Origin: an uncultured Oscillospiraceae bacterium
Lineage (GTDB): Bacteria; Bacillota; Clostridia; Oscillospirales; Oscillospiraceae
Reading direction: 5' to 3'
Assembly: GCA_947626785.1 (NCBI GenBank)
Contig: CANQTO010000009.1
Location: 1 to 64,000, forward strand
Length of the DNA stretch: 64,000 nt
This document shows, in pieces, positions 25,998 to 44,673 of the stretch. Each line of letters opens with the position of its first letter. Position 1 is the first letter of the stretch. Position numbers and translations under genes: made by a program. A model generated the notes under the pieces. It made no database searches and had not been told where the DNA came from. It saw only the letters and a list, made by a program, of their open reading frames with translations.

Positions 25998-26603
25998 TTA
26001 TGATCGCGGCCGTATGCCCCGGTGCTCCGGGGCGATATCGTAGAAGTTCTCCATCGCTTCAAAGGCCCGCTCCCGCAGGGGAAAGGCCCCCTTGGCGGCG
26101 CACCACTCGAAGACGATGAAAAAGGTCAGCTTCACGCCGGCGGGGATCAGGTCCTTCGGGGCCCCGTGGTTGCGGATGATGCCGGAGCGCTGGCAGTCTG
26201 CCACGAAGCGGACGAACCACTCCATGTAGCGGGACATGTATTCCTCCACGGCCTTCGTCATGCTGAGCTTCCCGCCCAGCTCCAGAGAGAACAGGGCCCC
26301 CGTCAGCGCCGGGCCGAACTCCTCCGCCAGGGAGAGGTATTTCACATACAGGACCCAGAGCTTTTCCAGGTCGCTCTCCGTGTGGAGGAGCCGCCGCATG
26401 GTGCCCTCAAAATCGTCCTTATAGCCCCGGAGGATGTGGAGAAGGATGTCGTCCTTGCCGGTGAAGACGCTGTAGAAGGAGGAGCGGGACACCCCCGCCC
26501 TTTGGCAGATGTCGTTGACCTGGATGGAGTTGTATTCCTCCTGCCGGAAAAGGGCCAGGGCGGCCTGGACGATCCGCTCGGAATTTTTCGAGTTGGCGAC
26601 CAT
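25998..26603 (-). CDS. TetR family transcriptional regulator (201 aa)
   Basis: The N-terminal helix-turn-helix is typical: SERIVQAALALFRQEEYNSIQVNDICQRAGVSRSSFYSVFTGKDDILLHIL. The C-terminal ligand-binding domain is helical and of usual length. AAGGAGG precedes the ATG at 26603; a longer frame lacks a ribosome site. It diverges from the redox operon starting at 26824, and the shared gap holds two palindromes, so it probably represses that operon and itself. A stem with TTTTAT on the minus strand (25979-25999) ends the gene. Confidence 0.9.
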   Translation of the reverse strand: MVANSKNSERIVQAALALFRQEEYNSIQVNDICQRAGVSRSSFYSVFTGKDDILLHILRGYKDDFEGTMRRLLHTESDLEKLWVLYVKYLSLAEEFGPALTGALFSLELGGKLSMTKAVEEYMSRYMEWFVRFVADCQRSGIIRNHGAPKDLIPAGVKLTFFIVFEWCAAKGAFPLRERAFEAMENFYDIAPEHRGIRPRS

Positions 26604-26622
26604 GGGGCACCTCCTTGTACAC

Positions 26623-26643
26623 ATGTCCAAGTTCTATGGACAT
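26623..26643. promoter_or_regulatory. Putative TetR operator 1
   Basis: ATGTCCA-AGTTCTA-TGGACAT, a perfect seven-base dyad, lies 20 bases upstream of the TetR start codon. The location fits self-repression. The half-site GTCCA recurs at 26787-26800. Confidence 0.6.
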
Positions 26644-26741
26644 CTTACCACAAACGTCTGAAAAACGCAATCACTTCGGCCTTTTTATTGCGCAAAAAGG
26701 GGCGGGAAAATCGTGCAAAACAGAGATTTTACTTCCGCAAA

Positions 26742-26770
26742 TTGACAAGCAAATAACGATATTTTATGAT
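26742..26770 (+). promoter_or_regulatory. Promoter of the redox operon
   Basis: A consensus TTGACA (26742-26747) and TATGAT (26765-26770) are 17 bases apart, 54 bases before the first start codon. Confidence 0.85.
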
Positions 26771-26786
26771 GGAAACACGGTTGAAG

Positions 26787-26800
26787 TGTTCACGTGGACA
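26787..26800. promoter_or_regulatory. Putative TetR operator 2
   Basis: TGTTCAC-GTGGACA is a 14-base palindrome with one mismatch pair, placed about 16 bases downstream of the -10 box. Its right half shares GGACA with operator 1. Binding here would block transcription of the redox operon. Confidence 0.5.
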
Positions 26801-26823
26801 GAGACAGAAAGGGGCTCGTTTCT

Positions 26824-27777
26824 ATGAATTTTTTGAATTACCAAGGAAAAAACAGCGGCACCTACCAGGGGCCCAACGACAAGCCCATGCCCGTGTCGCT
26901 GTTGCAGTACATCGTCCATTATGCTTACGGCGTCAACGAACCGACGATCCTGCGCATGAGCGCGGCCATGCTGGATGAGTACGAGGGCACGCCGGAGGGC
27001 CTGCGGAGAAAGGTGCTGGAAAAGGTCATCCGCACGGCCCAGAACACCTCGGAGACCGGCAATAAGCTGATCCCCCACGGGATCGTCCTGGGGCGGAAGG
27101 CCACGGCCAACCTGATCGACTTCGTCTACCATGTGGAGGGCTACCGGGGCGCCCGGATGGCCGTGGGCCCCTGTATCTGCCAGGTGGCCTCCCACAAGCT
27201 GCCGGAGGGCGTGGAGGAGATGGAGTGGAAGGATCTGACCCTGTTTTACGGGGCGGATATCTATAAGGACCTGCCCCTGGGGCACAAGGAGGTCAACGCC
27301 GAGGAGGCCAAGGAGATCTTCGAGAAGATGCACGAAAAGGGCTATGTCCACAACGCCTTTTATCTGTTCGGCAAGCGCTCGGGGCTGTTCGTGCTCTGCA
27401 ACTGCGACAAGGACCTGTGCCAGACTGTGCGGGGCACGCGGCTGCTGGGGCCCGGGCTCACCTCGGAGAAGGGCCCGGAGATCACCAAGCGGGACGCCTC
27501 CAAGTGCCTGGGGCCGGAGGAGTGCGGCATGTGCGTCAAGCGCTGCCCCTACGGAGCCAATAAGATCGTGGACGGGCAGATCGTCTTTAACCGGGACAAG
27601 TGCATGGGCTGCGAGGTCTGCGTGACCACCTGCAAGGGCCACGCCCGGGAGCTGGAGGAGCGGAAGGACTACGGCTTTGACCACATCCTCAACCGCAGTC
27701 TGGTGCTGGCCGGAAAGTACGGGCGGCCGGAGATGGAGATCGAGGAACTGATCGAGGAGGCGGCCAATGAGCAGTAA
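26824..27777 (+). CDS. 4Fe-4S cluster protein, first gene of the redox operon (317 aa)
   Basis: The C-terminal third holds two ferredoxin-type cysteine sets: CLGPEECGMCVKRCPYGANKI near 229 and CMGCEVCVTTC near 258. The first set carries a longer spacing after its first Cys (CxxxxxCxxC). The N-terminal two thirds have further cysteines in GPCICQVA and FVLCNCDKDLC, which could hold another cluster or metal. There is no signal peptide. AGAAAGGGG precedes the ATG. It overlaps the next gene by 11 bases. It is probably an electron carrier or a reductase subunit for the flavoenzyme downstream; no exact family name is offered. Confidence 0.85.
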   Translation: MNFLNYQGKNSGTYQGPNDKPMPVSLLQYIVHYAYGVNEPTILRMSAAMLDEYEGTPEGLRRKVLEKVIRTAQNTSETGNKLIPHGIVLGRKATANLIDFVYHVEGYRGARMAVGPCICQVASHKLPEGVEEMEWKDLTLFYGADIYKDLPLGHKEVNAEEAKEIFEKMHEKGYVHNAFYLFGKRSGLFVLCNCDKDLCQTVRGTRLLGPGLTSEKGPEITKRDASKCLGPEECGMCVKRCPYGANKIVDGQIVFNRDKCMGCEVCVTTCKGHARELEERKDYGFDHILNRSLVLAGKYGRPEMEIEELIEEAANEQ

Positions 27778-28084
27778 CTGGAAAAAGGCGCAGGCCCTCT
27801 GCGCCCTGTTGGATCTGGGCTGTCTGGCTGTGCTCTGCCGAAAAAAGTGGAAACCGGCGGCGGCCCTGTTCGGCCTGCACGGGTTGGAGTGGCTGCTGTT
27901 CGGGCACCGGGTGGGCAGGCTGAGCGGCGTGAGCGGCCGGGAGAGCTTCCTGCGCACCTTAGCGCTGGGCTGCACCTGGTGGCTGCCGCAGAACGAGCGT
28001 GCCCATGAGGAAATGGAGGCCCAGGTGGACCAAAAACGCTTTCAGACGAAGGCCAGCGGCGTAAAGCTGGCAAAAGGAGAATAG
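27767..28084 (+). CDS. Small hydrophobic-basic hypothetical protein (105 aa)
   Basis: An unrecognised protein coupled to the gene before it (start lies inside its end). Two short hydrophobic stretches (ALCALLDLGCLAVLC and AALFGLHGLEWLLFG) may lie in or on the membrane, and the C-terminal third is polar and charged (ERAHEEMEAQVDQKRFQTKASGVK). The conserved location within the operon suggests a helper role, perhaps membrane docking. Confidence 0.7.
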   Translation: MSSNWKKAQALCALLDLGCLAVLCRKKWKPAAALFGLHGLEWLLFGHRVGRLSGVSGRESFLRTLALGCTWWLPQNERAHEEMEAQVDQKRFQTKASGVKLAKGE

Positions 28085-28094
28085 GAGAATAACA

Positions 28095-30167
28095 ATGGCT
28101 TACGAAATGCTCTTATCCCCGATGCAGATCGGGACCATGACTGTAAAGAACCGCGTCGTCATGACCGCCGCCGAGATGGGCATGGGCGATATGGATGGGC
28201 GCGCCACGGAAAAGCTCATCACCTACTATGAGGAGCGGGCCAAGGGCGGCGTGGGGCTCATTATCACCGCCACTACCCGCGTCAACGACTGGGACTCCGC
28301 TTCCACCTTCACCCAACTGGCTGCCAGTCACGACTATCACATCGAATCCCTCCGCCGCTTTGCCGACCGTATCCACCGGCACGGCGGCAAGCTGGCCGTA
28401 CAGCTGCACCACGCGGGGCGGCAGGGCTACGCCATTTCCACCAACGACCTGCCCATGCTCCTCCCCGCCGTCAAGCTGGTCCCGCCTTTGCGCAAGGCGG
28501 TCTTTAACAGCACCGGCATGCTGTACAGCCTGGAGCAGAAGGGCCTGTTCTACCCGGTGCTGGCCCCCTCCGTCTGCGAGCCCAGCTACCATGTGCCCAG
28601 CAAGATGGCGGCTATGTCCAAACGGCATATCAAGAAGCTCATCCAGGACTTCGTGGATGCGGCGGAGCGCTGCCAGAAGGCCGGGGTGGACGCGGTGGAG
28701 ATCCACAGCGCCCACGGCTATCTGATCGAGCAGTTTTTGAGCCCGAACACCAACCGCCGGACAGACGAATACGGCGGCAGCCTGGAAAACCGGATGCGCT
28801 TTCTGCTGGAGATCATCGCCGGCATCCGCCAGCGCTGCGGGAATTATCCCATTATCGTCCGCCTGACCGTGGACGAGATGTACGAGCGCATCGGCAAGCC
28901 CGGCAAGGGCTACACCCTGGAGGAAGGCAAACGGATCGCCAAGCGTTTGGAGGAGGCCGGGATCGACGCTATCAACGTGACCTCCGCCTGCTACGATACT
29001 TACAACTACTGGCTGGAGCCCACCTCTTTTGTACCGGGCTGGCGGGCCTATCTGGCCAAGGAGATCAAGAACGTGGTGTCCATCCCGGTCATCGCCGCCA
29101 ACCTGATCCGCTCCCCCGACCAGGCGGAGCGGCAGCTGGAGGAGGGCGTGCAGGACTTTATCGGCTCCGCCCGCTCCTTTATCGCCGACCCCTATTGGGT
29201 GAAGAAGGTGGAGGAGGGGCACCCGGAGCGGATCAAGCGCTGCATCGGCTGCCTCAACTGCATGGAGAGCATGACCAACAACGCCTTTAAGGGCACCAAC
29301 GGCGAGTGCGCCCTGAATCCCCGGGTGGGCAAAGAGACCCTGCCCCAGCCTGCACAGAACGGAGACGGCCGCCTGGCCCTGGTGGTGGGCGCCGGCGTCG
29401 CCGGACTGATGGCGGCGGAGACCCTGGCCCGGCGGGGCTTTGCCGTCCGGGTGCTGGAGAAGGGCGAGAAGCCCGGCGGCCAGGTCAACACCGCCTCCAG
29501 CTGCATCAAAAAGGACAAGCTCTACTGGGCGGTGACCGACCTGATGGAGAATGTCAAGGAACTGGGTGTGGAGGTGGAGTACGGCATCGAGGCCACGGCC
29601 CAGATGATCGAAGAGATCGACCCCGCTGCGGTGGTGATCGCCACCGGTGCGGTGCCCGTGGTGCCCAAGTCCATCAAGGGCTGGGATCTGCCCCATGTCT
29701 GCACTGCCCCGGAGATCATCCTGGGCAAAAAGACCATTCAAAATAAAAACGTCGTGGTGGTGGGCAGCGGCATGACCGGCCTGGAGACCACCGAGATCCT
29801 CAACGAGGGCGGCAACCGTGTGACGGTGATCGAAATGGCCAATGAGGTTGCCCCTGGGACCTGGTTCCAGCTTTTGGACGACGAGATGAGCCGCATCAAT
29901 GGCCACGGCACGATATTCAAGACCTGCAAGCGCCTGATGGCGATCCGGGAAAGAAGCGTGGTCGTGGAGGACACCGGAACGGCCCGGCTGGAGGAGATCC
30001 CGGCGGATGCGGTGGTGCTGTCCCTGGGCGTCCGGCCGGAGAAGGGCCTGTACGAACAGCTGAAGGAGAAGAGAAACAACGTCTTCCTGGCGGGGGACGC
30101 CAATACCGGCGGCCGGATCGCCACCGCGGTCCACGACGGCTACAAGGCCGCGCTGGCCGTGCGCTGA
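28095..30167 (+). CDS. NADH:flavin oxidoreductase/enoate reductase family protein (690 aa)
   Basis: An Old Yellow Enzyme-type flavoprotein of the 2,4-dienoyl-CoA reductase/BaiCD/BaiH group, which reduces C=C bonds next to a carbonyl. The FMN barrel covers about 1-370 (EIHSAHGYLIEQFLSPNTNRRTDEYGG is diagnostic). A 4Fe-4S site follows (CIGCLNCMES, with a later GECALNP; cysteines from about 385). The C terminus binds FAD and NAD(P)H (LVVGAGVAGLMAAE near 431, VVVGSGMTGLETTE near 552). Candidate substrates are steroids, bile acids, cinnamates or flavonoids; none is proven. It is followed 18 bases later by an alcohol dehydrogenase. Confidence 0.93.
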   Translation: MAYEMLLSPMQIGTMTVKNRVVMTAAEMGMGDMDGRATEKLITYYEERAKGGVGLIITATTRVNDWDSASTFTQLAASHDYHIESLRRFADRIHRHGGKLAVQLHHAGRQGYAISTNDLPMLLPAVKLVPPLRKAVFNSTGMLYSLEQKGLFYPVLAPSVCEPSYHVPSKMAAMSKRHIKKLIQDFVDAAERCQKAGVDAVEIHSAHGYLIEQFLSPNTNRRTDEYGGSLENRMRFLLEIIAGIRQRCGNYPIIVRLTVDEMYERIGKPGKGYTLEEGKRIAKRLEEAGIDAINVTSACYDTYNYWLEPTSFVPGWRAYLAKEIKNVVSIPVIAANLIRSPDQAERQLEEGVQDFIGSARSFIADPYWVKKVEEGHPERIKRCIGCLNCMESMTNNAFKGTNGECALNPRVGKETLPQPAQNGDGRLALVVGAGVAGLMAAETLARRGFAVRVLEKGEKPGGQVNTASSCIKKDKLYWAVTDLMENVKELGVEVEYGIEATAQMIEEIDPAAVVIATGAVPVVPKSIKGWDLPHVCTAPEIILGKKTIQNKNVVVVGSGMTGLETTEILNEGGNRVTVIEMANEVAPGTWFQLLDDEMSRINGHGTIFKTCKRLMAIRERSVVVEDTGTARLEEIPADAVVLSLGVRPEKGLYEQLKEKRNNVFLAGDANTGGRIATAVHDGYKAALAVR

Positions 30168-30185
30168 CAAAAGGAGGTTTCGATT

Positions 30186-31418
30186 ATGGACAGAAAAAAG
30201 CTGATGGATTTCGCAAAAGAAGCCGCTTACAAGACCAATTTCTTTATGATGGATAAGGGCAAATATGTGCCCTTCCTCTGGCCCCAGCCCAAGCTGATCT
30301 CCGGCGCGGGCTCCTCCCTGAAAGCGCCCCAGGTGCTCCGGGAGCAGGGCATCAGCCGGGTTTTGGTGGTCACCGGCCCCAGGAGCGGCCGGATCCTGGC
30401 TGAACCTATTCTGGCAGAGCTGGACAAGTACGGCCTGCCCTATGAGCATTTTTATGAGGTAGAGGCAAACCCCTCCCTGGAGACGGCGGAGAAGATCGCC
30501 CGGCTCTACCGGGCCGCCGGCTGCGACGGCTTTCTGGCCATCGGCGGCGGCTCTCCCATGGACGCGGCCAAAGGCGCGGCGGCCCGGATCGCCCGGCCCA
30601 ACACGCCCTTTGCCAAGCTTGCCGGAGTCATGAAGCTCTTAGTGCCCGCGCCGCCCGTCGTGGCGATCCCCACCACTGCCGGTACGGGCAGCGAGTGCTC
30701 CTTTGTGGCGGTGCTCACAGACCACCAGCGGGAGATCAAGATCGCCATTACCGACCAGCATCTGATCCCCAAGGCGGCCATCCTGGACCCGGAGCTGACC
30801 CTGGGCCTGCCCCAGAGCCTGACTGCCTCCACCGGCGTGGACGCCCTGACCCACGCGGTGGAATCCTACACCAACGCCGCCTACGGCACGGACTTCACCG
30901 TCCGCTGCGCGGAGGAGGCCGTGGTGAAGATCTTCCGCAATCTGGAGAAGGCCTATCACGACGGCGGGGACCTGGAGGCCCGGCGGGAGATGCTGGAGGC
31001 CTCCTACAAGGCGGGGCTGGCCTTTACCCGCACGGGCGTGGGCAACGTCCACGCCATCGCCCATGCCTTAGGCGGCAAGTACGGCATACCCCACGGGCTG
31101 GCAAACTCCGTCATCCTGCCCATCGTGCTGGAGGATTACGGCAGCGTGGTGTACACGAAGCTTGCCCATCTGGCGGAGCTGACCGGCGTGAAGACGGAGG
31201 GCACGGAGGAGCAGAAGGCCCGGGCCTTTATCGGGGCCATCCGGGCGCTGAACGCCCGCCTGGGCCTCCCCACCGGCCTGGCGGACATCCGCCCCGAGGA
31301 CTTTGACCATGTCGCCCGGACCGCTGTCCGGGAGGCGACGCACACCTATCCCACCCCGGTGATCTACACCGTGGAGCGCTGCCGCCACGTGCTGAACCGG
31401 ATCTATCTGGAGGCCTGA
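30186..31418 (+). CDS. Iron-containing alcohol dehydrogenase (410 aa)
   Basis: A group III (Fe-dependent) NAD(P) alcohol dehydrogenase. GGGSPMDAAKGAAARIA binds the cofactor, and the iron ligands lie in GVDALTHAVESYTNAAYG (Asp, His) and VHAIAHALGGKYGIPHGLANS (His, His). AAAGGAGG precedes the ATG. In the operon it could oxidise or form a hydroxyl group on the same substrate that the OYE-type enzyme reduces. The N terminus is slightly longer than usual (about 30 residues). Confidence 0.94.
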   Translation: MDRKKLMDFAKEAAYKTNFFMMDKGKYVPFLWPQPKLISGAGSSLKAPQVLREQGISRVLVVTGPRSGRILAEPILAELDKYGLPYEHFYEVEANPSLETAEKIARLYRAAGCDGFLAIGGGSPMDAAKGAAARIARPNTPFAKLAGVMKLLVPAPPVVAIPTTAGTGSECSFVAVLTDHQREIKIAITDQHLIPKAAILDPELTLGLPQSLTASTGVDALTHAVESYTNAAYGTDFTVRCAEEAVVKIFRNLEKAYHDGGDLEARREMLEASYKAGLAFTRTGVGNVHAIAHALGGKYGIPHGLANSVILPIVLEDYGSVVYTKLAHLAELTGVKTEGTEEQKARAFIGAIRALNARLGLPTGLADIRPEDFDHVARTAVREATHTYPTPVIYTVERCRHVLNRIYLEA

Positions 31419-31420
31419 CT

Positions 31421-31516
31421 GTGGAAAAGAGACGGGAACTACGGGCCCTGAGCGCCGTCGCCCCCTATGCCGCGAAGCGGGCCGCCCGGTTCGCACTGAA
31501 AAAGCGGAAGGGCTGA
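31421..31516 (+). CDS. Small basic peptide ORF (31 aa)
   Basis: A GTG-started frame fills the whole gap between the alcohol dehydrogenase stop and the hypA-like start, leaving two and three bases on either side. The product is strongly basic and helical in appearance (VEKRRELRALSAVAPYAAKR, then a K/R-rich tail). It may be a real small protein or the leftover end of a deleted gene. Confidence 0.4.
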   Translation: MEKRRELRALSAVAPYAAKRAARFALKKRKG

Positions 31517-31519
31517 CAG

Positions 31520-31867
31520 ATGCACGAACTGGGACTGATCGTGGATGTGGTGGAGCTGACGGAGAGATTCGCTGTGGAGAACCGGATCGACCGGGTGAAA
31601 AAGGTGGTCCTGGACGTGGGGGAGCTGTACTACATCATCCCCACGCTCATGTACAGCGTCTACCGCAGCGCCGTCAAGGGGACCCGGCTGGAGGGATCCG
31701 AGCTGGAGCTCCGGGTGGTGGACGCGGCGGCGGACTGCGCCGTCTGCGGCGGGGAGTTCGACCCCCTGAAGACGGACGGCGTGTGCCCCTGCTGCGGCCA
31801 GAGCGACTACACCGTCAAGGCCGGAAAGGAATTTGAGATACGGCAGATCGAAGCGGGCGGAGCATAA
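31520..31867 (+). CDS. HypA/HybF-like nickel metallochaperone (115 aa)
   Basis: The start MHELGL matches the nickel-binding MHE motif of HypA. A zinc site is present as two CxxC pairs (CAVCGGEF and CPCCGQ). HypA normally helps load nickel into [NiFe] hydrogenase or urease, but neither enzyme is encoded here. The neighbours are a molybdopterin enzyme and a HydABC-like triad. It may have been recruited to mature one of these enzymes. Length is normal for the family. Confidence 0.85.
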   Translation: MHELGLIVDVVELTERFAVENRIDRVKKVVLDVGELYYIIPTLMYSVYRSAVKGTRLEGSELELRVVDAAADCAVCGGEFDPLKTDGVCPCCGQSDYTVKAGKEFEIRQIEAGGA

Positions 31868-31941
31868 AGGCGACTTCCGCCGCCTAAACAAAACTTGCAG
31901 TCCGTTTAAATTCGCAGTATAAATAAAAGGAGGGAGAAAAC

Positions 31942-34254
31942 TTGGGCGAATGGAAAAAGACCCAGTGCAACATGTGTGTGCTCAGCTGCGGGCTGGAGAT
32001 GGAGGTGGAGGACAACAAGATCCTCCGGGTCCGTCCCGACCCCAGCAGCCCCCGCTCTCACGGCTATTGCTGCCGGAAGGGGCGGACGGCGAAATACTAC
32101 CAGGAGGACCCCAACCGGCTTGACTACCCGCTGAAAAAGGTGGGGGACCACTTTGAACGGGTCACCTGGGAGCAGGCCCTGCAGGAGATCGGACAGCGGG
32201 CCAGGCGGATCGTGGACATCCACGGGCCCCGGTCCGTGGGCCTGATCGGCGGGACCCTGTCGGCGGGCCAGTCCGACCTGGTCTTTGGCCGGGGGCTCAT
32301 GTCCCTGATGGGCTCCCAGTACTATTTCAACCCCATCGGCATCGAGTTCATGGGCTCCTGGTGGAGCCACGGCAAGATCTTCGGGGACCAGATGCACTTC
32401 TTGGAGCCGGACGACGACAACTGTGAAATGCTCATCTTCTGGGGCAGCAACTCCTATGTCTCCGGCCAGATCCTGAACGCCCGGGAGAAGATCCGGGAGA
32501 CCTCCCGGGGCACGGAGCGCATGGTCGTCAGCGTGGACCCCCGGCTGTCGGAGACAGCCCGGATGGCCGATCTGCACATCATGCCCCGGATGGGGGCGGA
32601 CTCCCTGATGCTGCGGGGCATGATCGCCCTGATCCTGCAAAAGGGCTGGGAGGACAGGGCCTATATCGCCAAATACGTCAAGGACCTGGACGCGGTCCGG
32701 CCTTGGTTCGAGGGCGTGGACATCGGAGAGTGCTTCCGGGTCAGCGGCGTGCGCTATGAGACCATGGAGCGCTTCTGCCGCCTGCTGACCACGAAGAAGT
32801 GGGGCGTCCATATGGACCTGGGCCTGTTTATGGGGCGGCACAACACCCTCAACTGCTATCTGCTGCTGATCCTGGCGGTCCTCTGCGGCGTGGCGCTGAT
32901 GCCTGGGGGCTGCATCGTGCCCGAGTGCACCATCCTCCGGGGCTACACCACGGATGAAAACGACCCCAAGGTCTGGCGCACGGTGAAGACTGACCGTTTC
33001 CCTGTGCTGGGGACCTACCCGGAGAGCGTGGTGCCCGACGAGATCCTGAACGACGATCCCCGGCGCATCCGCATGATGTTTGTGGACGCCTCCAACCCGG
33101 CCCGCTCCTATCCGGACACCAAGGCCATGGTCAAGGCCCTGAGCAGCCTGGAGCTGCTGGTCTGTATCGACACCTGCATGACGGAGACGGCCCGGCTGGC
33201 GGACTATGTGCTGCCTGCAAAGAACGGCTACGAGGCCTACGAGCTGAACGCCTTTCAGTACAATTTCCCAGAGATCGTGGGCCATATGCGGCACCCGGTG
33301 ATCGAGTGGCAGATCGGCGAGCGCAAGGAGGGCGGGCAGATCTGGATCGAGCTTGCCAAGGCCACGGGCTTTCTCCCCAAGCTGCCGGACTTCCTCTATA
33401 AGGCGGGGGAGAAGGCGGCCAGGACCGGCGACCGCATCCCCTACTTCATGAAGCTGCTGGCCTACGCCGGGACCCACATGAAATACTTTGACGCCCTGCC
33501 CATGATCGTGGGCGAGACCCTGGGACAGTATATGGGCTCCGCGGTCCGCGCGGTGGTCTGGGCCGCCTATATGACCTCGCCTATCGCCAACAAGGGAATG
33601 CTCGGCAAGGCCGGGGTCCCGCCTCTGGGCAAGCACCCGGCGCTGGAGAAGCTGCCCGGCTTCGCGGAGTTCTGCCGCCTGGACGCGGCCTTCCAGCTGG
33701 TGGACGACACGCCCTAGGGGGCGGTCATCGCCCTGTCCGACCCCAGCACCATGATCGACCGGCATATCCGGCACAAGGATAAGAAGATCCACCTGTACTG
33801 CGACGAGATCGACCAATATATCCGCAAGGTCACGCCGGAAAACGAGGAGAAGGAGCTGCTGCACAACGAGGACTATCCCATGGTGCTCTCCTCCGGCCGT
33901 CATTCGGACGACGGCGTCAACTGGGTCATGCGCAACCCCAAAATGAACGAGCACCGGAACTTCTTCCGGCTGGCCATCCACCCGGAAGACGCGGCCCGGC
34001 TGGGCATCGAGAACGGGGAGACAGTCTCCCTGACCACGGACACCGGGACTATTGAGGTGGAGGCGGAATATACCTGGCAGACGGCCCCGGGCTACGTGCT
34101 GCTGCCCCACCACTACGGCATAGAGGTCCAGGGCAAGGTCTACGGTATCTCCTCCAATGAGCTGGTGGGCCGGGACCACCTGGATGAACTGACCGGCAAT
34201 CCTCTCCTGCGGTACATTCCCTGCCGCGTGGAAAAACTGAAAAAGGAGGCCTGA
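31942..34254 (+). pseudogene. Molybdopterin-dependent oxidoreductase interrupted by in-frame TAG
   Basis: A bis-MGD enzyme of the formate dehydrogenase/DMSO reductase family. A 4Fe-4S site lies at the N terminus (Cys9, 12, 16 and 43/44), then the MopB core (WEQALQEIGQRARRI, LIFWGSNSYVSGQILNA, DYVLPAKNGYEAYELNAFQ). The frame stops at TAG 33715-33717 (codon 592). It resumes without shift through 34254 with the molybdopterin dinucleotide-binding C-terminal domain (LSSGRHSDDGVNWVMRNP, HPEDAARLGIENGETVSLTT). The expected full length is about 770 aa. No Cys or Sec codon aligns with the formate dehydrogenase metal-ligand site (IEFMGSWWSHG lies there), so formate is doubtful. TTG start after AAAGGAGGGAG. 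The TAG could be a mutation, a read error or read-through. Confidence 0.85.
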
Positions 34255-34255
34255 G

Positions 34256-34696
34256 ATGAAAAGCACGAAGAAACTCATTTCCGCCGCGCTGGAGGAGGGC
34301 GGGCTGCTGGACGCCCTGCTGGCCCTGCAGAAGCGGGACGGCTATGTGACCGAGGAGGGCCTGAGCGCCCTGGCCGCCGCCGTGGGCAAGAGTCCGGCGG
34401 AGCTGTACGACACCGCCAGCTTCTACTCCATGCTCCGCTTCGCGCCCCCGGCCGCCGCGGAGATCCGCCTCTGCCGGGGCACCGCCTGCCACTCCGGCGG
34501 CAACGCCGCCCTGGCCGCGGCTCTGGAGGCGGCCACAGGCCTGCAAATGGGCCAGAGCAATGAGAAGTTCAGCCTGGGCTGGGTGGAGTGCCTGGGCCAG
34601 TGCCAGGCAGCGCCCAATCTGCTCATAAACGGCAAGCTGTACACCCATGTGGATGCTGAGAGCATCCCCGAACTGCTGGGAGGTGAGAAGGGATGA
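34256..34696 (+). CDS. NuoE/HydC-like 2Fe-2S subunit (146 aa)
   Basis: A thioredoxin-fold 2Fe-2S protein like the 24-kDa subunit of NADH dehydrogenase and HydC/HylC of bifurcating enzymes. The four ligands are Cys73, Cys78, Cys112 and Cys116 (LCRGTAC and ECLGQC). The N-terminal helical domain ([20 protein letters not shown]) is usual. It begins two bases after the molybdopterin gene stop and overlaps the NuoF-like gene. It should pass electrons between the flavin subunit and the iron-sulfur chain. Confidence 0.93.
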
Positions 34697-35924
34697 AAGA
34701 AGTCCGTATCGCGCTGCGGAACGTGAGGAAGATCGACCCCCGTTCCATCGACGAGTACATCGCCGCCGGGGGCTATACGGCTCTCGCAAAGGCCCGGACT
34801 ATGGACCGGGGCGAGCTCATCCGCACCGTGGAGGAGACCTCCCGCCTGCGTGGGCGCGGCGGCGCGGCGTTCTCCACCGGCAAAAAGTGGAGCAGCGCCT
34901 TTGCCAGCGACAGCCAGGTCAAATACATCGTCTGCAACGCCGACGAGGGCGAGCCGGGCACCTATAAGGACCGGACCATCAGGAGGGAGACCCCCACACG
35001 GTGATCGAGGGCCTGCTCATCGGGGCCTACGCGGTGGGCTCCAAGGAGTGTTTCATCTACGTCCGGGGCGAGTATGAGACGTCCATTTCCCTGCTCCGCA
35101 ACGCCGTGAAGCAGGCGGAGGAGCGGGGCCTCTGTGGGGACGTGAAGATCAAGGTGGTCTCCGGCGCGGGGGCCTATGTCTGCGGCGAGGGCACCGCCAT
35201 CGTAAACTCCCTGGAGGGGGTCCGGGGCGAGCCCCGGCTGAAGCCGCCCTCCATGGCCGTGGCCGGCCTGCACCAAAAGCCCACGGTGGTCAACAATGTG
35301 GAGACCTTCGCGGTGATCCCGGAGATCATCAACAAGGGTGCGGACTGGTTCGGGTCCATCGGCGCGGAGAAGTTCCCCGGCACCAAGCTCATGTGCCTGA
35401 GCGGAGATATCTGCAACAAGGTCTGCGTGGAGGTCCCCACCGACGCCACCTTGCGGGACGTGGTGGAGGGCTTCGGAGACGGTGTCCCCGGCGGGAAAAA
35501 GCTGAAAGCCCTCCAGCTGGGTGGCTCCTCCTGCGGCTTCGTGAAGCCGGAGCAGCTGGATACCCCCGTGGACTTCGACTCCATCCGCTCCATCGGCGCG
35601 TCCCTGGGCTCCGGCGCGGTGTACGCGCTGGACGAGACGAGGAATGTGGTGGACATCCTGCTGGAGATCGCGAAGTTTTATAAGCACGAGTCCTGCGGCA
35701 AGTGCACTCCCTGCCGGGAGGGCACCATGCGCATCGTGGAATTGATGGAGAAGCTGGCCGCCGGACAGGGGACGAAAGGAGACATAGAGCTTTTGAAGTC
35801 CTTAGCCGGGTATATGCAGAAGAGCTGCTTCTGTCCCCTGGGTCAGAGCGCACTGACAGCCTTTATGAGCGCTCTAAAGCTGTTCCCGGAGGACTTTGAG
35901 GCGAAGCTCAGGAAGGAGGCGTGA
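34693..35924 (+). pseudogene. NuoF/HydB-like NADH-binding flavoprotein, frameshifted
   Basis: The NADH- and FMN-binding subunit of a Nuo/Hyd-type complex. The first part holds [14 protein letters not shown] and [15 protein letters not shown] and then reads into a stop at 35002-35004. The second part, in another frame, continues with [26 protein letters not shown]. Comparison with the family ([16 protein letters not shown]) shows one missing T after base 34981. The C-terminal 4Fe-4S motif is present (SCGKCTPCREGT, then CFCPLGQSAL). Restored, it would be about 410 aa and lack the extra N- and C-terminal ferredoxin domains of HydB. It is either a real lesion or a sequencing error. Confidence 0.85.
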
Positions 35925-35926
35925 AC

Positions 35927-37342
35927 ATGGCGAATGTAGATCTGACCATCGACGGCAAGACCCTGTCCGTGCCTGCCGGGACGACGATTTTAGAGGCTGC
36001 GCGGGCAAACGGCATCCGCATCCCCACCCTGTGCTTTCTGAAGGGGCTGGCCCCCCGGGCCTCCTGCCGCATGTGCGTGGTGGAGGTAGAGGGGGCGCGG
36101 ACCTTCCAGCACGCCTGCGCCACCAAGGCGCGGGAGGGGATGGTGGTCCATACGGACACCGAGGCCGTCCGGGCCTCCCGGAAGCTGACGCTGCAGCTGC
36201 TGCTGTCGGACCACGCGGTGGACTGCCACCACTGCCTGCGCCTGGGCAACTCCAAGTGCGACGATCTGGACCCCCGCTTCTGCGAGATGTGCTTCTTCTG
36301 TGACTGCGTGAAGGACGGCTTCTGCGAACTCCAGGCCCTGGCGAGAGAGTACAAGGTGGACGTGCTGCCCTTTAGCCAGAAGCACAACACCCGGCCGGTG
36401 GACGCCTCCACCGTCATCGTCCGCAACCCCAACAAGTGCGTCAAGTGCAAGCGCTGCATCGACGTGTGCGGCCAGGTGCAGACGGTGCACAATCTGGCGG
36501 CCTCCGGCCGGGGCTTCGCCGTGACCATCGGCACGGCCTTCGGGAAGAGCATGGCGGAGAGCGGCTGCGTGGGCTGCGGGCGCTGTGTGGAGGTCTGCCC
36601 CACGGGGGCCATCGCGGCGCTGGAGCACAAGGACGAGCTGGTGTACTACGCCCACCGGGACGGGGTCAGGACTGCCGCCACGGTCTCGGCGGAGCTGCTG
36701 CCGGAGCTGGAGCGGGTGCTGAAGCTCCAGCCGGGGAGCGTGAAGCTTGCGGAGATCGCGGGGGCGCTGAAGAAGATCGGCGTGGACGCGGTGTACGACA
36801 CGGCCCAGGCGGAGGACGCCGCCCGGGCGCAGGCGGAGGAGCAGCTGGCGGAAAAGCTGGCCCAGGGCGGGCCGGTGATCCTGACGGACAGCTTCGCGGC
36901 CAAGGCCTTTTTGGAGAAAAACTTCCCGGAGAAGCAGGAGCAGTTTTTATTCTGCGCCTCGCCTCTGGCTGCCTTTGACCAGGCCACCGAGGTAAAATAT
37001 GACAAGCGCTTTGCTTTCGGCCCCGTGGGCGGGGACGCGGTGGAGTGCGAGAAGACCGGCTGTGTGGACATCGCAGTCAACGCCCGGGAGCTGGCTCGGA
37101 TCATGATCCGGACCGGCGCGGAGCCGAACCCCAAGCGTGTCTCCGGCTTTGAGGAGCTGGGCGCCGCCCGCTCCACCGGCCGCTACGGGCGGCTGCTGGA
37201 GAAAGCTGCCTGGAACATGGAGAAAGAGCCGGAGGTATTCCAGATGGAAGGCCTGCGCTGCGCCGTCTGTCACAATCTGGGCCAGGCCCGGCGCCTGCTG
37301 GAGAGCGGCGAGGGCTACGATGTGCTCCGGGTGATCGCCTGA
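35927..37342 (+). CDS. HydA-like iron-sulfur protein lacking the H-cluster (471 aa)
   Basis: The N-terminal half matches the [FeFe] hydrogenase HydA/NuoG electron-transfer region: a 2Fe-2S domain (Cys36, 47, 50, 64), a His-Cys3 cluster (HAVDCHHC and later Cys), and two 4Fe-4S sets (CVKCKRCIDVCGQ, CVGCGRCVEVCP). The C-terminal half aligns by order and motifs with the hydrogenase domain (VDIAVNARELARIM for DVDAVLTTRELARMI; GLRCAVCHNLGQARRLLES for GLKVAVAHGLGNARKLL). The H-cluster cysteines are missing: TSCCPGW is replaced by LTDSFAAK and the final GCPGGC is absent. This is like the HylA type of the NADH/ferredoxin formate dehydrogenase of Clostridium acidurici. ATG 35927 follows AAGGAGGC. Confidence 0.85.
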   Translation: MANVDLTIDGKTLSVPAGTTILEAARANGIRIPTLCFLKGLAPRASCRMCVVEVEGARTFQHACATKAREGMVVHTDTEAVRASRKLTLQLLLSDHAVDCHHCLRLGNSKCDDLDPRFCEMCFFCDCVKDGFCELQALAREYKVDVLPFSQKHNTRPVDASTVIVRNPNKCVKCKRCIDVCGQVQTVHNLAASGRGFAVTIGTAFGKSMAESGCVGCGRCVEVCPTGAIAALEHKDELVYYAHRDGVRTAATVSAELLPELERVLKLQPGSVKLAEIAGALKKIGVDAVYDTAQAEDAARAQAEEQLAEKLAQGGPVILTDSFAAKAFLEKNFPEKQEQFLFCASPLAAFDQATEVKYDKRFAFGPVGGDAVECEKTGCVDIAVNARELARIMIRTGAEPNPKRVSGFEELGAARSTGRYGRLLEKAAWNMEKEPEVFQMEGLRCAVCHNLGQARRLLESGEGYDVLRVIA

Positions 37343-37347
37343 TTTAC

Positions 37348-37387
37348 AAAAACCGGCGAGCTTCGCAAGAAGCCCGCCGGTTTTTTT
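37348..37387 (+). terminator. Terminator of the redox operon
   Basis: AAACCGGCG...CGCCGGTTTTTTT stem with an inner AGCTT/AAGC pairing and a seven-T tail, seven bases after the last stop codon. Confidence 0.88.
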
Positions 37388-37403
37388 AGGTAATATGTAA
37401 GAG

Positions 37404-41371: not shown

Positions 41372-41701
41372 CTAACGATCCCCGGAGCGGGGGGCGCTTT
41401 TCTCCAGGCGGCGGTTCCGAAAATAAATGCCGATGCCGGCCGCCACCATGAGGGTGTTCAGCACGTAAAAGAACAGCACGTACCAGTGGACCGTCTCGTA
41501 CCAGGGCGCGGGGGCATAGTAGGCGATCAGGACCAGCTTGCCCGTCAGCGCGAAGAGATAGCCGAGCAGGATGAAGGAGTAGAACAGCAGGCTGATCCCC
41601 TTGGTGCTGCGGGCCTTCCAGGCCTTGGAGATGTTGACCGGCCAGGAGAGGCCGAAAAAGATGACCATCAGCATCTCCATATAGCTTGCAAAATTCAGCA
41701 T
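41372..41701 (-). CDS. PQ-loop/SemiSWEET-like membrane protein (109 aa)
   Basis: Three membrane helices of PQ-loop type. SWPVNISKAWKARSTKGISLLF matches the pattern of SemiSWEET and related proteins around the first helix loop, with P in the expected place. The third helix is WYVLFFYVLNTLMVAAGIGIYF. It overlaps the CoA transferase gene by seven bases and is the last gene of the kor operon. It may move an organic acid or sugar; this is inference. Confidence 0.75.
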   Translation of the reverse strand: MLNFASYMEMLMVIFFGLSWPVNISKAWKARSTKGISLLFYSFILLGYLFALTGKLVLIAYYAPAPWYETVHWYVLFFYVLNTLMVAAGIGIYFRNRRLEKSAPRSGDR

Positions 41702-43239
41702 GGTTTTTCCCTCTCTTTCTCGTCTGTTATCAGCATGCTCCCCGTCTCACGGAGCCGGGTGTGGAAGCTGAAGCACTCCTCCAGCAGCTGGGGCGTCTGG
41801 GCACCACCGGTGGCGGCGCAGGCCCGCTCAAAATAGGCCCGGAGCTGGGGCCGGTAGGCGGGGTGGGCGCAGTTTTCGATGATCTGCCTGGCCCGCTCCT
41901 TGGGGGACAGGCCCCGCAGGTCGGCATAGCCCTGCTCCGTCACCAGCACGTCCACATCGTGCTCCGTGTGGTCCACATGGGGCACCATGGGTACGATGCA
42001 GGAGACCGCGCCGTTCTTGGCGACCGAACCTGTCATAAAGATGGAGATGGCGGAGCTGCGGGCGTAATCGCCGGAGCCGCCGATGCCGTTGTAGATATTC
42101 GTGCCGCCCATCTGGGAGGAATTGACGTTCCCGTAGATGTCGGCCTCCACCGCCGTGTTCATGGCGATGACGCCCAGACGGCGGATGAGCTCGGCGCTGT
42201 TGGAGATCTCCGAATCCCGCAGGACGATCTTGCTCCGGTAGCGCTCCAGATTTTCCAGCAGGCGGCGCATGCCGTCCTCCGACAGGGACAGAGACGTGGC
42301 GGAGGCCAGGTCTGCCTTCCCCGCGTCGATCAGGTCCAGGATGCCGTCCTGCATGACCTCGGAATAGAAGCGCAGATGGGAGAACTCCCCGTCCTTCAGG
42401 CCCAGCAGGACGGCGTTTGCCACGGAACCCACGCCGGACTGGAGGGGCAGCCGGTCCGCCGAGGGCCGCCCTGCGGCTTTTTCCTTCTGGAGAAAGGCCA
42501 GGATATTGGCGGCGATCCGGCGGCTGACCTCATCCTCCGGCGCCAGGGGCCGGGGCTTTTCCGGCGCCTCGCTGAGGACCACCGCGGCGATCTTCTCCGC
42601 CGGGCAGCGGAGCCAGGGCGTTCCGATACGCTGCCCCACCTGGGTGAGGGGGACCGGCCCCCGGCAGGGCGGGTCGGGCAGCCGGACGATGTCATGAAAG
42701 CCCTCCAGCTCCGCCGACTGCTTCAGGTTCAGCTCCACGATCACCCGCTCGGCCGCGTCGATAAAGGCTTGGGAGCAGCCCACCGCTGTGGTGGGGATCA
42801 GGTTCCCCTCTTCTGTGACGGCGGCCGCCTCGATGATGGCCACATGGACCGGCCCGTAAAAGCCCAAGCGGGTGTTCTGGGCCAGCTGCCCCAGATGGAT
42901 GTCCGTAAAAGCGACCGGCTCTCCGGCCTTTCCGTTCACGGCGGCCCGAAGGGCTCCGCTGGTCATGTACGGCAGCCGCCGGGCGATGATGCCCAGAGAA
43001 GCCCAGGCGGAGTCCAGCTCCTCGCCGGTGGAGGCCCCGGAGAGCAGATTCAGCCGGAGCTTCCGTTTCCCGCTGCGGACCTGTTCCGCCAGCGCCAAGG
43101 GCACCGCCTTGGGGCAGCCGGAGGGGGTAAAACCACTGACGGCCACCGTCATGCCGTCTTCAAGCAGCAGGGCGGCCTCCTCCGCCGTCATGAGCTTTTC
43201 TTTCAGCGCCTCACAGCGCAGTCTCTTTTCCCAGTCCAT
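41695..43239 (-). CDS. cat1: Acetyl-CoA hydrolase/transferase family CoA transferase (514 aa)
   Basis: A class I CoA transferase of the Cat1/SucC-like group, which moves CoA between acyl-CoA and acetate or succinate. The catalytic Glu lies in FYSEVMQDGILDL. GGSGDYARSSAISIFMTGS and VPMVPHVDHTEHDVDVLVTEQGYADLRGL are strong family signatures. It lies four bases after the ferredoxin oxidoreductase gamma gene. With that enzyme it would turn 2-oxo acids into acyl-CoA and then free acid plus new acyl-CoA. Confidence 0.93.
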   Translation of the reverse strand: MDWEKRLRCEALKEKLMTAEEAALLLEDGMTVAVSGFTPSGCPKAVPLALAEQVRSGKRKLRLNLLSGASTGEELDSAWASLGIIARRLPYMTSGALRAAVNGKAGEPVAFTDIHLGQLAQNTRLGFYGPVHVAIIEAAAVTEEGNLIPTTAVGCSQAFIDAAERVIVELNLKQSAELEGFHDIVRLPDPPCRGPVPLTQVGQRIGTPWLRCPAEKIAAVVLSEAPEKPRPLAPEDEVSRRIAANILAFLQKEKAAGRPSADRLPLQSGVGSVANAVLLGLKDGEFSHLRFYSEVMQDGILDLIDAGKADLASATSLSLSEDGMRRLLENLERYRSKIVLRDSEISNSAELIRRLGVIAMNTAVEADIYGNVNSSQMGGTNIYNGIGGSGDYARSSAISIFMTGSVAKNGAVSCIVPMVPHVDHTEHDVDVLVTEQGYADLRGLSPKERARQIIENCAHPAYRPQLRAYFERACAATGGAQTPQLLEECFSFHTRLRETGSMLITDEKEREKPC

Positions 43240-43243
43240 CGTT

Positions 43244-43813
43244 TCAGCCCCATTTCCGCGCGAAGGCCGCCGCCTGCTCCGGCGAGATCAGCTCCGCGCC
43301 GGCGTCCAGCGCTCTCCGGTTGATGTCCTCCGTGCCGGCGGGGATGTGGCGCTTGACCGCCTCCAGCAGCGTCTCCCCGTCAAAGAGGCCCAGGGCCTTA
43401 TTGATAGCGCCCACCGCCACGATGTTCGCGGTGAAGGCCTTGCCGACCACCTCCCGGGCGGTTTGCAGCACAGGCACGGAGAGGACCTGCGCCGGGTCCA
43501 GCCCCTCCGGGAGGCGCAGGCTGCTGTCCATCATGATAAGGCCCCCGGCAGCCAGAGTCTTTGAGTAGCTGTCCAGAGACTCCTGGGTCAGAGCCAGGAG
43601 AAAGTCCGGCGCGGTCACCTTGGAATACCAGATCGGCTCCCGGCTCAAAATGGTCTCCGCCTTGCTGACGCCGCCCCTCGCCTCCGGCCCGTAGGCCTGA
43701 GACTGGACAGTCTTCATGCCGCTGATCACGGCGGCCTCGGCAAAAATCACGCTGGCCAGAATGACGCCCTGCCCGCCGGAACCGGCAAAGCGCAGCTCAT
43801 AACGGCCTTTCAT
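43244..43813 (-). CDS. korC: 2-oxoacid:ferredoxin oxidoreductase gamma subunit (189 aa)
   Basis: The gamma subunit/domain of a pyruvate/2-oxoglutarate ferredoxin oxidoreductase. RFAGSGGQGVILASVIFAEAA and the SQAYGPEARGGVSKAETILS block are typical. The ATG at 43813 overlaps the beta gene stop. The longer open frame through the beta gene is a shadow. It acts in the cytoplasm as part of the alpha-beta-gamma-delta complex. Confidence 0.94.
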   Translation of the reverse strand: MKGRYELRFAGSGGQGVILASVIFAEAAVISGMKTVQSQAYGPEARGGVSKAETILSREPIWYSKVTAPDFLLALTQESLDSYSKTLAAGGLIMMDSSLRLPEGLDPAQVLSVPVLQTAREVVGKAFTANIVAVGAINKALGLFDGETLLEAVKRHIPAGTEDINRRALDAGAELISPEQAAAFARKWG

Positions 43814-44673
43814 TCGCGCGCCTCCTCCCCTTCGCCGCCGGTTTTCCGGCAGGCCTCGATCACCTTGGCGTACTCCTCCGTATACTCGGGGTAGTCGTTG
43901 TAGGCCAGGATCCCGATCCGCTTTTTGCCCTTCCGCTCTCCCTCGGGCATGCTGTAGTACCGGGCGGTGGGGATCAGATTGTCCCGCTGCCACTTGAGCA
44001 TATCCACCGCGTCGCCCTTCTTGTTCTTCCGGCCATAGTAGGTAGGGCAGACGGAGTACACGTCCACAAAGGAGAAGCCCTTGTGCAAAATGGCCTGCTT
44101 GATGATGTCGATGGTCTCCCGGACGTGATAGACGTCCCCTCTCGCAGAGAAGGAGGCCCCGGCGCCCCAGGCCAGGTTGGCGATATCGAAAGGCCGGTCC
44201 ACGTTGCCGTAGGGCGCGGTGGTGGCCCGGTCGCCGTTGGGCGTGGTGGGGGAGTACTGCCCGCCGGTCATGCCGTAGATGTTGTTGTTGAAGGCGATGA
44301 CCGTCAGGCCCATGTTCCGCCGGGCCGCGTGGATCAGATGGTTGCCGCCGATGGCGGAGCAGTCCCCGTCCCCGGTGAGGACGATCACGTGCAGCTTGGG
44401 GTTGGCGAATTTGATGCCGGTGGCAAAAGCGATGGCCCGGCCGTGGGTGGTGTGGATGGAATTGAAGTCCAGGTATCCGGCGGCCCGGGAGGAGCAGCCG
44501 ATCCCGGAGACGACCACGAAGTCCTCCCGGTTGAAGTTCAGGGCGGGGTCCTCGATCAACTCGTGGATCGCCACGGCCACGTCCCGCATGATGACGCCGT
44601 TGCCGCAGCCGGGACACCAGATCTGGGGAAGGTGGTCGATCCTCATATACAGATGGACAAGATCACTGGGCAT
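43810..44673 (-). CDS. korB: 2-oxoacid:ferredoxin oxidoreductase beta subunit (287 aa)
   Basis: The thiamine diphosphate-binding subunit. WCPGCGNGVIM and GIGCSSR carry conserved cysteines for a 4Fe-4S cluster, and GDGDCSAIGGNHLIHAARRN...NNNIYGMTGGQ binds thiamine diphosphate and magnesium. It overlaps both neighbours by a few bases. The group with separate alpha, beta, gamma and delta genes is commonest for 2-oxoglutarate, but branched-chain oxo acids are possible. Confidence 0.95.
   Translation of the reverse strand: MPSDLVHLYMRIDHLPQIWCPGCGNGVIMRDVAVAIHELIEDPALNFNREDFVVVSGIGCSSRAAGYLDFNSIHTTHGRAIAFATGIKFANPKLHVIVLTGDGDCSAIGGNHLIHAARRNMGLTVIAFNNNIYGMTGGQYSPTTPNGDRATTAPYGNVDRPFDIANLAWGAGASFSARGDVYHVRETIDIIKQAILHKGFSFVDVYSVCPTYYGRKNKKGDAVDMLKWQRDNLIPTARYYSMPEGERKGKKRIGILAYNDYPEYTEEYAKVIEACRKTGGEGEEARE

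Follow-up and report, generated by a model that had tools for sequence, protein, structure and literature searches.

Does a tight run of redox genes behind one promoter encode a single, intact and energy-conserving system? This question is raised by a locus of an uncultured Oscillospiraceae bacterium (GenBank assembly GCA_947626785.1, contig CANQTO010000009.1, positions 1 to 64,000; this whole stretch of 64,000 nucleotides is hereafter called the window). According to open reading frame (ORF) analysis, a contiguous same-strand (+) run with short or overlapping junctions occupies 26824-37342. A first-pass annotation had described this run as an intact ten-gene operon in which an Old Yellow Enzyme (OYE)-type reductase, a molybdopterin enzyme and a HydCBA-like module form one electron-bifurcating unit. 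The TetR-linked tight run is borne out by its ORFs and families, a promoter match and the TetR gene, and, as had been stated, no described system with this gene set was found in the open-licence literature. A tight operon does not imply a single pathway. We favor, with a probability of about 0.6, the reading that the locus is a composite, remodelled operon: the promoter-proximal region of a TetR-linked module was swapped for a cassette encoding OYE and an iron-containing alcohol dehydrogenase (Fe-ADH), the molybdoenzyme/NAD half is probably inactive in this genome, and OYE and Fe-ADH would act on an unsaturated substrate.

Comparison with related loci

In a genus relative, G305 (locus L050), the same TetR gene (69% identical to that of the window), 19-bp operator and promoter lead directly into a molybdoenzyme-NuoE-NuoF-HydA-like module, without the 4Fe-4S, OYE, Fe-ADH and HypA-like genes, and the alignment with the window breaks off right after the -10 box. 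Among the loci searched, the 19-bp repeat pattern matched only the window and this relative. The promoter-like site matches 11 of 12 consensus positions (26742-26770); the pattern scan alone, which returned five such sites in the region versus 3.0 (sd 1.6) in shuffles, would be weak evidence, and the recurrence of the site in G305 adds support. In relatives, the TetR-linked module (molybdoenzyme, NuoE, NuoF and HydA-like hub) is uninterrupted. The window differs from it in the stretch from promoter to NuoE, which contains the 4Fe-4S protein, a small hydrophobic protein, OYE, Fe-ADH, a 31-aa ORF, a HypA-like protein and a molybdoenzyme of another subfamily.

The HydA-like protein of the window shares 74-78% identity with its counterparts in five NuoEF-bearing genus relatives (L022 and L050-L053, L022 being the Oscillospiraceae metagenome-assembled genome (MAG) RGIG3778 from roe deer abomasum). 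In the HydA tree it falls inside a nine-row group with genus relatives (97/97), its exact place within that group being weak (84/85). By contrast, the window molybdoenzyme lies outside a 12-row clade (100/99) containing every genus copy included (L062 and L063 were too partial for this tree), and is 52-57% identical to all tree members except the distant L032 (40%). An approximately unbiased (AU) test rejects joining it to the genus copies (p = 9e-55 and 1e-41); its exact place in the tree is unsure. Since HydA groups with the genus but the molybdoenzyme does not, the promoter-proximal stretch (about 26775-34254) was probably swapped in.

The linkage of the two halves was assessed in 22 other molybdoenzyme loci (21 distinct, one of them an own-genome paralogue), 12 OYE loci, one Fe-ADH locus and two 4Fe-4S protein loci. 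The molybdoenzyme loci were obtained from a family-genome search, a DNA comparison of 101 genus genomes (among the matches listed) and three named contigs. At a threshold of at least 45% identity across half the protein, the window OYE was present in 0/21 distinct molybdoenzyme loci and a molybdoenzyme gene in 0/12 OYE loci, which speaks against the earlier view of one functional unit; missing linkage in relatives was a refuting condition named by the first-pass annotation itself. The only molybdoenzyme locus with any OYE match is that of the own-genome paralogue (L024), where a 326-aa OYE is 28% identical. NuoE, NuoF and HydA accompany the molybdoenzyme in nine distinct loci (in L031 the molybdoenzyme gene comes last), HydA without NuoEF in eight, and neither is found, or the locus is cut, in four. 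Homologs of the window TetR occur near the molybdoenzyme gene, without the OYE half, in eight loci (L025, L026, L030, L031, L050, L051, L053 and L062), the match in L025 being only partial. For L021, L023 and L032, where the codon-scored ORF model called few genes, genes were read using tblastn and length-picked ORFs. The molybdoenzyme was matched in 8/300 family genomes at E 1e-60, own genome included, and among 391 class genomes in the own genome only at E 1e-100. The 4Fe-4S protein is also rare (3/300 family genomes at E 1e-20 and 1/295 order genomes at E 1e-25, both counts including the own genome).

A transcript stop between the halves (31868-31941) is unsupported: the fold there is ordinary (z +1.0) and no plus-strand terminator was found by the pattern scan, which can miss terminators, having overlooked the clear hairpin after the last gene (0/200 shuffles equally stable).

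Interruptions of the molybdoenzyme and NuoF genes

The intact system that had been assumed is not supported. The molybdoenzyme gene carries an in-frame TAG at 33715-33717, upstream of its dinucleotide-binding domain, and NuoF a one-base frameshift near 34985, with the break inside the FMN/NADH domain. The run and its named families stand, but the ten gene units correspond to twelve ORFs (these two genes each in two pieces). The first-pass annotation had missed both lesions. A match to a Sporomusa homolog runs across the TAG (reported by the search as "1 TAG"), and this codon is a sense codon in 21/21 relative rows; at the NuoF break, relatives are in frame in 10/10 rows. Because L022 and L054 are apparently one contig, these rows represent 20 distinct molybdoenzyme genes and nine distinct NuoF genes. 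The next ATG of the molybdoenzyme remainder (33751) is not preceded by a Shine-Dalgarno-like site, and in NuoF the GTG at which fragment 2 starts and the fragment 1 stop overlap, AGGAGG lying about 14 bases 5' of this GTG.

Pyrrolysine recoding of the TAG was considered and rejected, as no PylS above the cut-off was found in the own genome (1/14 control genomes passes). A search for suppressor tRNAs within the window returned tRNA-Ala and tRNA-Gly. As an error control, stops were counted in genome-wide ABC-domain matches (0/74), and a non-exhaustive coding scan of the 64-kb window revealed no further clearly broken gene. At columns invariant in the other rows, window deviations amounted to 7/135 in the molybdoenzyme N-terminal part (the highest of 18 rows; others 0-5), 2/29 in its C-terminal part (others 0-4), 4/53 in NuoF fragment 1 (others 0-4), 7/150 in NuoF fragment 2 (others 0-13) and 0/74 in HydA (others 0-6).

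One relative row (L025a) has an internal molybdoenzyme stop at a different place. This locus (L025; G102:C15, 1615-6260) contains a tandem molybdoenzyme gene pair, the first with an internal stop (1 TAA), so that a broken copy of the family is seen in a second genome. The own genome holds a second molybdoenzyme gene on another contig (L024; G000:C32, 8783-11885), which has no stop, is 56% identical to that of the window and has a 260-aa Fe-S protein (FeS260) ahead of it. FeS260 is also present in the L025, L026 and L051 loci; it was rejected as a homolog of the window 4Fe-4S protein, the match being confined to the ferredoxin part.

Assessment of alternative readings

In the composite reading, the HydA-like Fe-S hub of the ancestral module would have carried electrons between NAD(H) at NuoE/NuoF and a substrate at the molybdenum/tungsten site, and no bifurcation would have been involved. 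The OYE ene-reductase and Fe-ADH would have come under the promoter of the module by a cassette swap, the molybdoenzyme/NAD half would probably no longer be functional in this genome, and OYE and Fe-ADH may remain active, using NAD(P)H, on an inducing unsaturated alcohol, aldehyde or ketone.

Several points weigh against it. A single genome is involved, and the fetched loci are a sample including several short contigs, so absence is limited to the stretch covered. The AU groups were named after the tree had been seen, and the window molybdoenzyme sits on a long end branch. Direct repeats at the cassette ends were sought and rejected, as 26740-26840 shares no 8-base word with 31850-31960 or 34200-34300. 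A swap and a stepwise gain would both fit the data, and one event or several may have been involved. The broken genes show little decay. Either the lesions arose very recently, or the assembly is wrong at these sites, or the split proteins remain functional; translational coupling could yield NuoF fragment 2.

If the interruptions were sequencing or assembly errors, the ten-gene operon would be intact, though composite all the same and predicted to be non-bifurcating. The draft state of the assembly (98 contigs) is compatible with this explanation, as is the remaining sequence, conserved about as in relatives. Nevertheless, we consider it unlikely given the clean ABC-domain control, the lack of other clearly broken genes in the non-exhaustive window scan, and the occurrence of two lesions of unlike type inside one module.

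Molybdoenzyme subunits can be made as two polypeptides, as in FwdB/FwdD. A comparable arrangement here, with a two-polypeptide molybdoenzyme subunit and NuoF as two coupled polypeptides, would suit the position of the TAG ahead of the dinucleotide-binding domain, the overlapping GTG with its AGGAGG, and the little decay of conserved columns. It is nevertheless improbable, considering the ATG without a Shine-Dalgarno-like site, the unsplit genes of all relative rows at both sites (21/21 and 10/10), and a NuoF break that falls inside a domain.

The NuoE/NuoF/HydA-like module and electron bifurcation

Sequence criteria for bifurcation were taken from the accessible parts of Losey et al. 2020 (PMC7311640) and Schut et al. 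2022 (PMC9304861). According to the latter, BfuB has B2-B5 clusters outside the NuoF core, together with a ferredoxin domain that is located C-terminally in HydB. In PMC7311640, bifurcating chains are marked by Ala/Glu and Met at Thermotoga maritima HydB 232/234 and by Phe replacing Tyr near FMN, with the caution that the number of domains by itself is not diagnostic. Likewise, lack of the N-terminal domain does not by itself identify a non-bifurcating chain, because the Desulfovibrio Hnd enzyme lacks the cluster of this domain yet bifurcates (PMC7483475, accessible part). The residue signature consequently carries the main weight.

Relative NuoF proteins are 410-412 aa long in 8/9 cases (the ninth, L031, being taken as 377 aa), and their last Cys lies inside the NuoF core; fragment 2 of the window has the same kind of end. 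The five HydB-type chains aligned are 584-630 aa long and can be aligned to NuoF only across their middle, and the added C-terminal ferredoxin/cluster domain of BfuB was not seen in window or relative NuoF. At the positions corresponding to HydB 232/234, placed by motif rather than through the T. maritima chain, Thr and Lys occur within EPGT[YF]KD in 10/10 NuoF sequences including that of the window, versus Ala and Met in 5/5 HydB-type chains. GAGAY is present in 8/10 NuoF sequences (no GAGA match in L021 and L023) and GAGAF in 5/5 HydB-type chains, this comparison being made by motif rather than by the residue number of PMC7311640. By these sequence criteria, with neither the HydB C-terminal cluster domain nor the Ala/Glu-Met signature, the module is predicted to be non-bifurcating, and the proposal of energy-conserving bifurcation is not sustained; bifurcation does not follow from gene names of the HydCBA type. 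The HydA-like subunit does lack H-cluster motifs, as previously noted (read in the alignment). A single complex whose HylCBA-type module bifurcates among NADH, ferredoxin and OYE/molybdoenzyme substrates is favored by the shared operon and the presence of HydA-like and NuoE/NuoF-like families, but is highly improbable in view of halves unlinked in fetched relatives, a beta subunit without bifurcation hallmarks and interrupted genes.

The molybdoenzyme family

The window molybdoenzyme belongs to the bis-pyranopterin guanine dinucleotide (bis-PGD, MopB) superfamily, with Fe4S4, molybdopterin and dinucleotide-binding Pfam domains all present, the last beyond the TAG. In a second look, limited to the top Foldseek chains, the intact L022 homolog matched the fold of bis-PGD enzymes over its whole length. 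Glu135-Phe136 is invariant in 18/18 molybdoenzyme sequences and aligns to Cys-His in 7qv7 and Sec-His in 9t1s, so the Cys/Sec followed by His of formate dehydrogenases is absent from the metal-ligand site of this family. Because of this replacement, formate is an unlikely substrate. The metal ligands given in the accessible table and text of PMC10100899 are Sec/Cys, Ser, Asp or none. We tentatively suggest, with less confidence than for the composite reading, that the family (window, Oscillospiraceae, Sporomusa and Acetobacterium) is an uncharacterized Glu-ligand bis-PGD class whose partner is either the hub alone or a full NuoE/NuoF/HydA-like module that does not bifurcate. Often adjoining TetR, its members would act on organic substrates as exchangeable, NAD(H)-linked cartridges, and the window might then represent an exchange under way. 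This small molybdo/tungsto family with an unusual ligand-site residue could be tested in uninterrupted relatives.

The promoter-proximal genes

Oxidored_FMN and Pyr_redox domains, an HxxHxY motif and a Cys cluster motif were all found in the window OYE, identifying it as an Fe-S OYE flavoenzyme. It is 57-64% identical to relatives in 12 loci and just 25-30.5% identical to the seven other OYE genes of its own genome, and stays under the NCBIfam cut-offs for BaiCD (428/825 bits), bilirubin reductase (407.9/750) and mycofactocin (426.8/793). The steroid, bile acid, cinnamate or flavonoid type of substrate suggested by the first-pass annotation would thus be conjectural; a steroid/sterol role was considered in the light of the accessible parts of PMC12238238 and PMC13079761 and not adopted.

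The 12 OYE loci (L055-L059, L065 and L070-L075) are part of several dozen OYE matches listed. Neighbors include a short-chain dehydrogenase/reductase (SDR) in 12/12, a tocopherol-cyclase-like protein in 11/12 and a tungsten aldehyde oxidoreductase (AOR) in 5/12, with the reference SDR and cyclase-like proteins from L057 and AOR from L065. Fe-ADH is found near OYE in 3/12 loci: in G004 it is the direct neighbor, in G333 it lies on the opposite strand at a distance of about 4.6 kb, and in G349 the distance is about 8.6 kb. This count is biased upwards because G004 and G349 (L070 and L071) were chosen for a same-contig Fe-ADH match and G333 (L065) was listed with one too. A cluster of OYE, SDR, tocopherol-cyclase-like, aldehyde ferredoxin oxidoreductase (AFOR) and Fer4/ThiS genes recurs in the genus relatives L065, L071, L072, L073 and L074, and in G252 an aldehyde oxidoreductase fused to Fe-ADH lies beside TetR-molybdoenzyme-HydA. 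These OYE/Fe-ADH/AOR neighborhoods support alcohol/aldehyde and ene-reduction chemistry as a putative function. The recurring OYE-SDR-tocopherol-cyclase-like-AOR/ADH cluster of this genus could be tested in uninterrupted relatives. No match to the tocopherol-cyclase-like protein was found in the own genome, in a search run without a positive control. A 1054-aa ORF at 3937-7098 of L029 fuses AFOR and Fe-ADH.

The proposed HypA-like chaperone passes the Pfam HypA cut-off, as do three other proteins of its genome, but misses the TIGR00100 equivalog cut-off for the HypA nickel metallochaperone (78.4 vs 88.1 bits); the family assignment stands, the equivalog assignment does not.

Likeness to known systems

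Among the closest systems are Fds/MeFDH1-type formate dehydrogenases, which are NAD(H)-linked bis-PGD enzymes that do not bifurcate, although the Fe-S hub of the window is a separate HydA-like subunit and its family has Glu-Phe instead of Cys/Sec-His. The Bfu family (HydABC; HylCBA-FdhF2 of Gottschalkia/Clostridium acidurici) shares A/B/C homology and a separate molybdoenzyme subunit, whereas three features of that family are missing from the window B subunit: the ferredoxin domain at the C-terminus, the N-terminal domain and the A/E-M signature. The extra Cys-rich motif of the HydA/NuoG-like protein resembles one reported for StnC/NsoC in the Sporomusa Stn and Nso transhydrogenases, but no GltD-like domain was seen in the window module, and the extra C-terminal clusters of StnB have no counterpart in window NuoF. 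Gut Fe-S OYE reductases (BaiCD, bilirubin reductase and steroid 5beta-reductase ci2350; accessible part of PMC12238238) likewise combine OYE, Fe-S and FAD/NAD domains; the window OYE reaches about half the NCBIfam cut-offs and has other neighbors, ci2350 being compared by domain architecture. The four-gene module also occurs, with unchanged order and no interruption, in Sporomusa acidovorans (L023) and an Acetobacterium MAG (L021), but without a match to the window TetR and without the OYE half. The Acetobacterium module is preceded by a GntR regulator and followed by MoeA- and MobB-type cofactor genes. The surroundings of the Sporomusa module (L023, 3455-9276) encode a protein with an SCP2 sterol-transfer domain as well as an RND transporter of the AcrB type.

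Features of the locus

Pfam or NCBIfam matches back every named family of the run (Table 1), except the small hydrophobic protein, for which Pfam gave no match, and the 31-aa ORF, whose support is a weak coding signal.

Table 1. Coordinates of the gene run and its regulatory features in the window (MFE, minimum free energy)
Feature	Position	Strand	Remarks
TetR-family regulator	25998..26621	-	divergent; Pfam TetR_N 43 bits; start perhaps 26603
Candidate TetR operator, 19-bp inverted repeat	26624..26642	.	same place, 19/19 identical in G305/L050
Sigma-70-like promoter	26742..26774	+	common to G305; G305 alignment stops at ~26774
4Fe-4S protein, 317 aa	26824..27777	+	Fer4 matches (Pfam)
Small hydrophobic protein, 105 aa	27767..28084	+	no Pfam match; 42% match near G369 OYE locus
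OYE-type FMN/FAD/4Fe-4S ene-reductase, 690 aa	28095..30167	+	uninterrupted; Oxidored_FMN 248 bits
Iron-containing alcohol dehydrogenase, 410 aa	30186..31418	+	uninterrupted; Fe-ADH 152.5 bits, ADH_Fe_C 156.9 bits
31-aa ORF, uncertain gene	31421..31516	+	weak coding signal 31445-31513; GGAGG 5' of GTG
HypA-family metallochaperone-like protein	31520..31867	+	Pfam HypA 91 bits vs cut-off 28.9
Molybdoenzyme subunit, N-terminal part, 591 aa	31942..33717	+	Molybdopterin and Fe4S4 domains; ends at in-frame TAG
Molybdoenzyme same-frame remainder, 178 codons	33718..34254	+	dinucleotide-binding domain, Molydop_binding 66.9 bits
NuoE/HydC-like [2Fe-2S] subunit	34256..34696	+	2Fe-2S_thioredx 107.6 bits
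NuoF fragment 1, 103 aa	34693..35004	+	nuoF_fam model positions 4-96
NuoF fragment 2, 307 aa	35001..35924	+	out of frame; nuoF_fam model positions 99-409
HydA/NuoG-like Fe-S hub	35921..37342	+	no H-cluster; Cys-rich insert kept in relatives
Intrinsic terminator	37343..37395	+	hairpin and T-run after last gene; MFE -26.4 kcal/mol, z -6.3

Elsewhere in the window, the minus strand at 41698-45796 encodes a protein of the acetyl-CoA hydrolase/transferase type and a subunit of the pyruvate:ferredoxin oxidoreductase type, and a 590-aa protein with sigma-70 regions 2 and 4 in its first part is encoded at 50367-52136.

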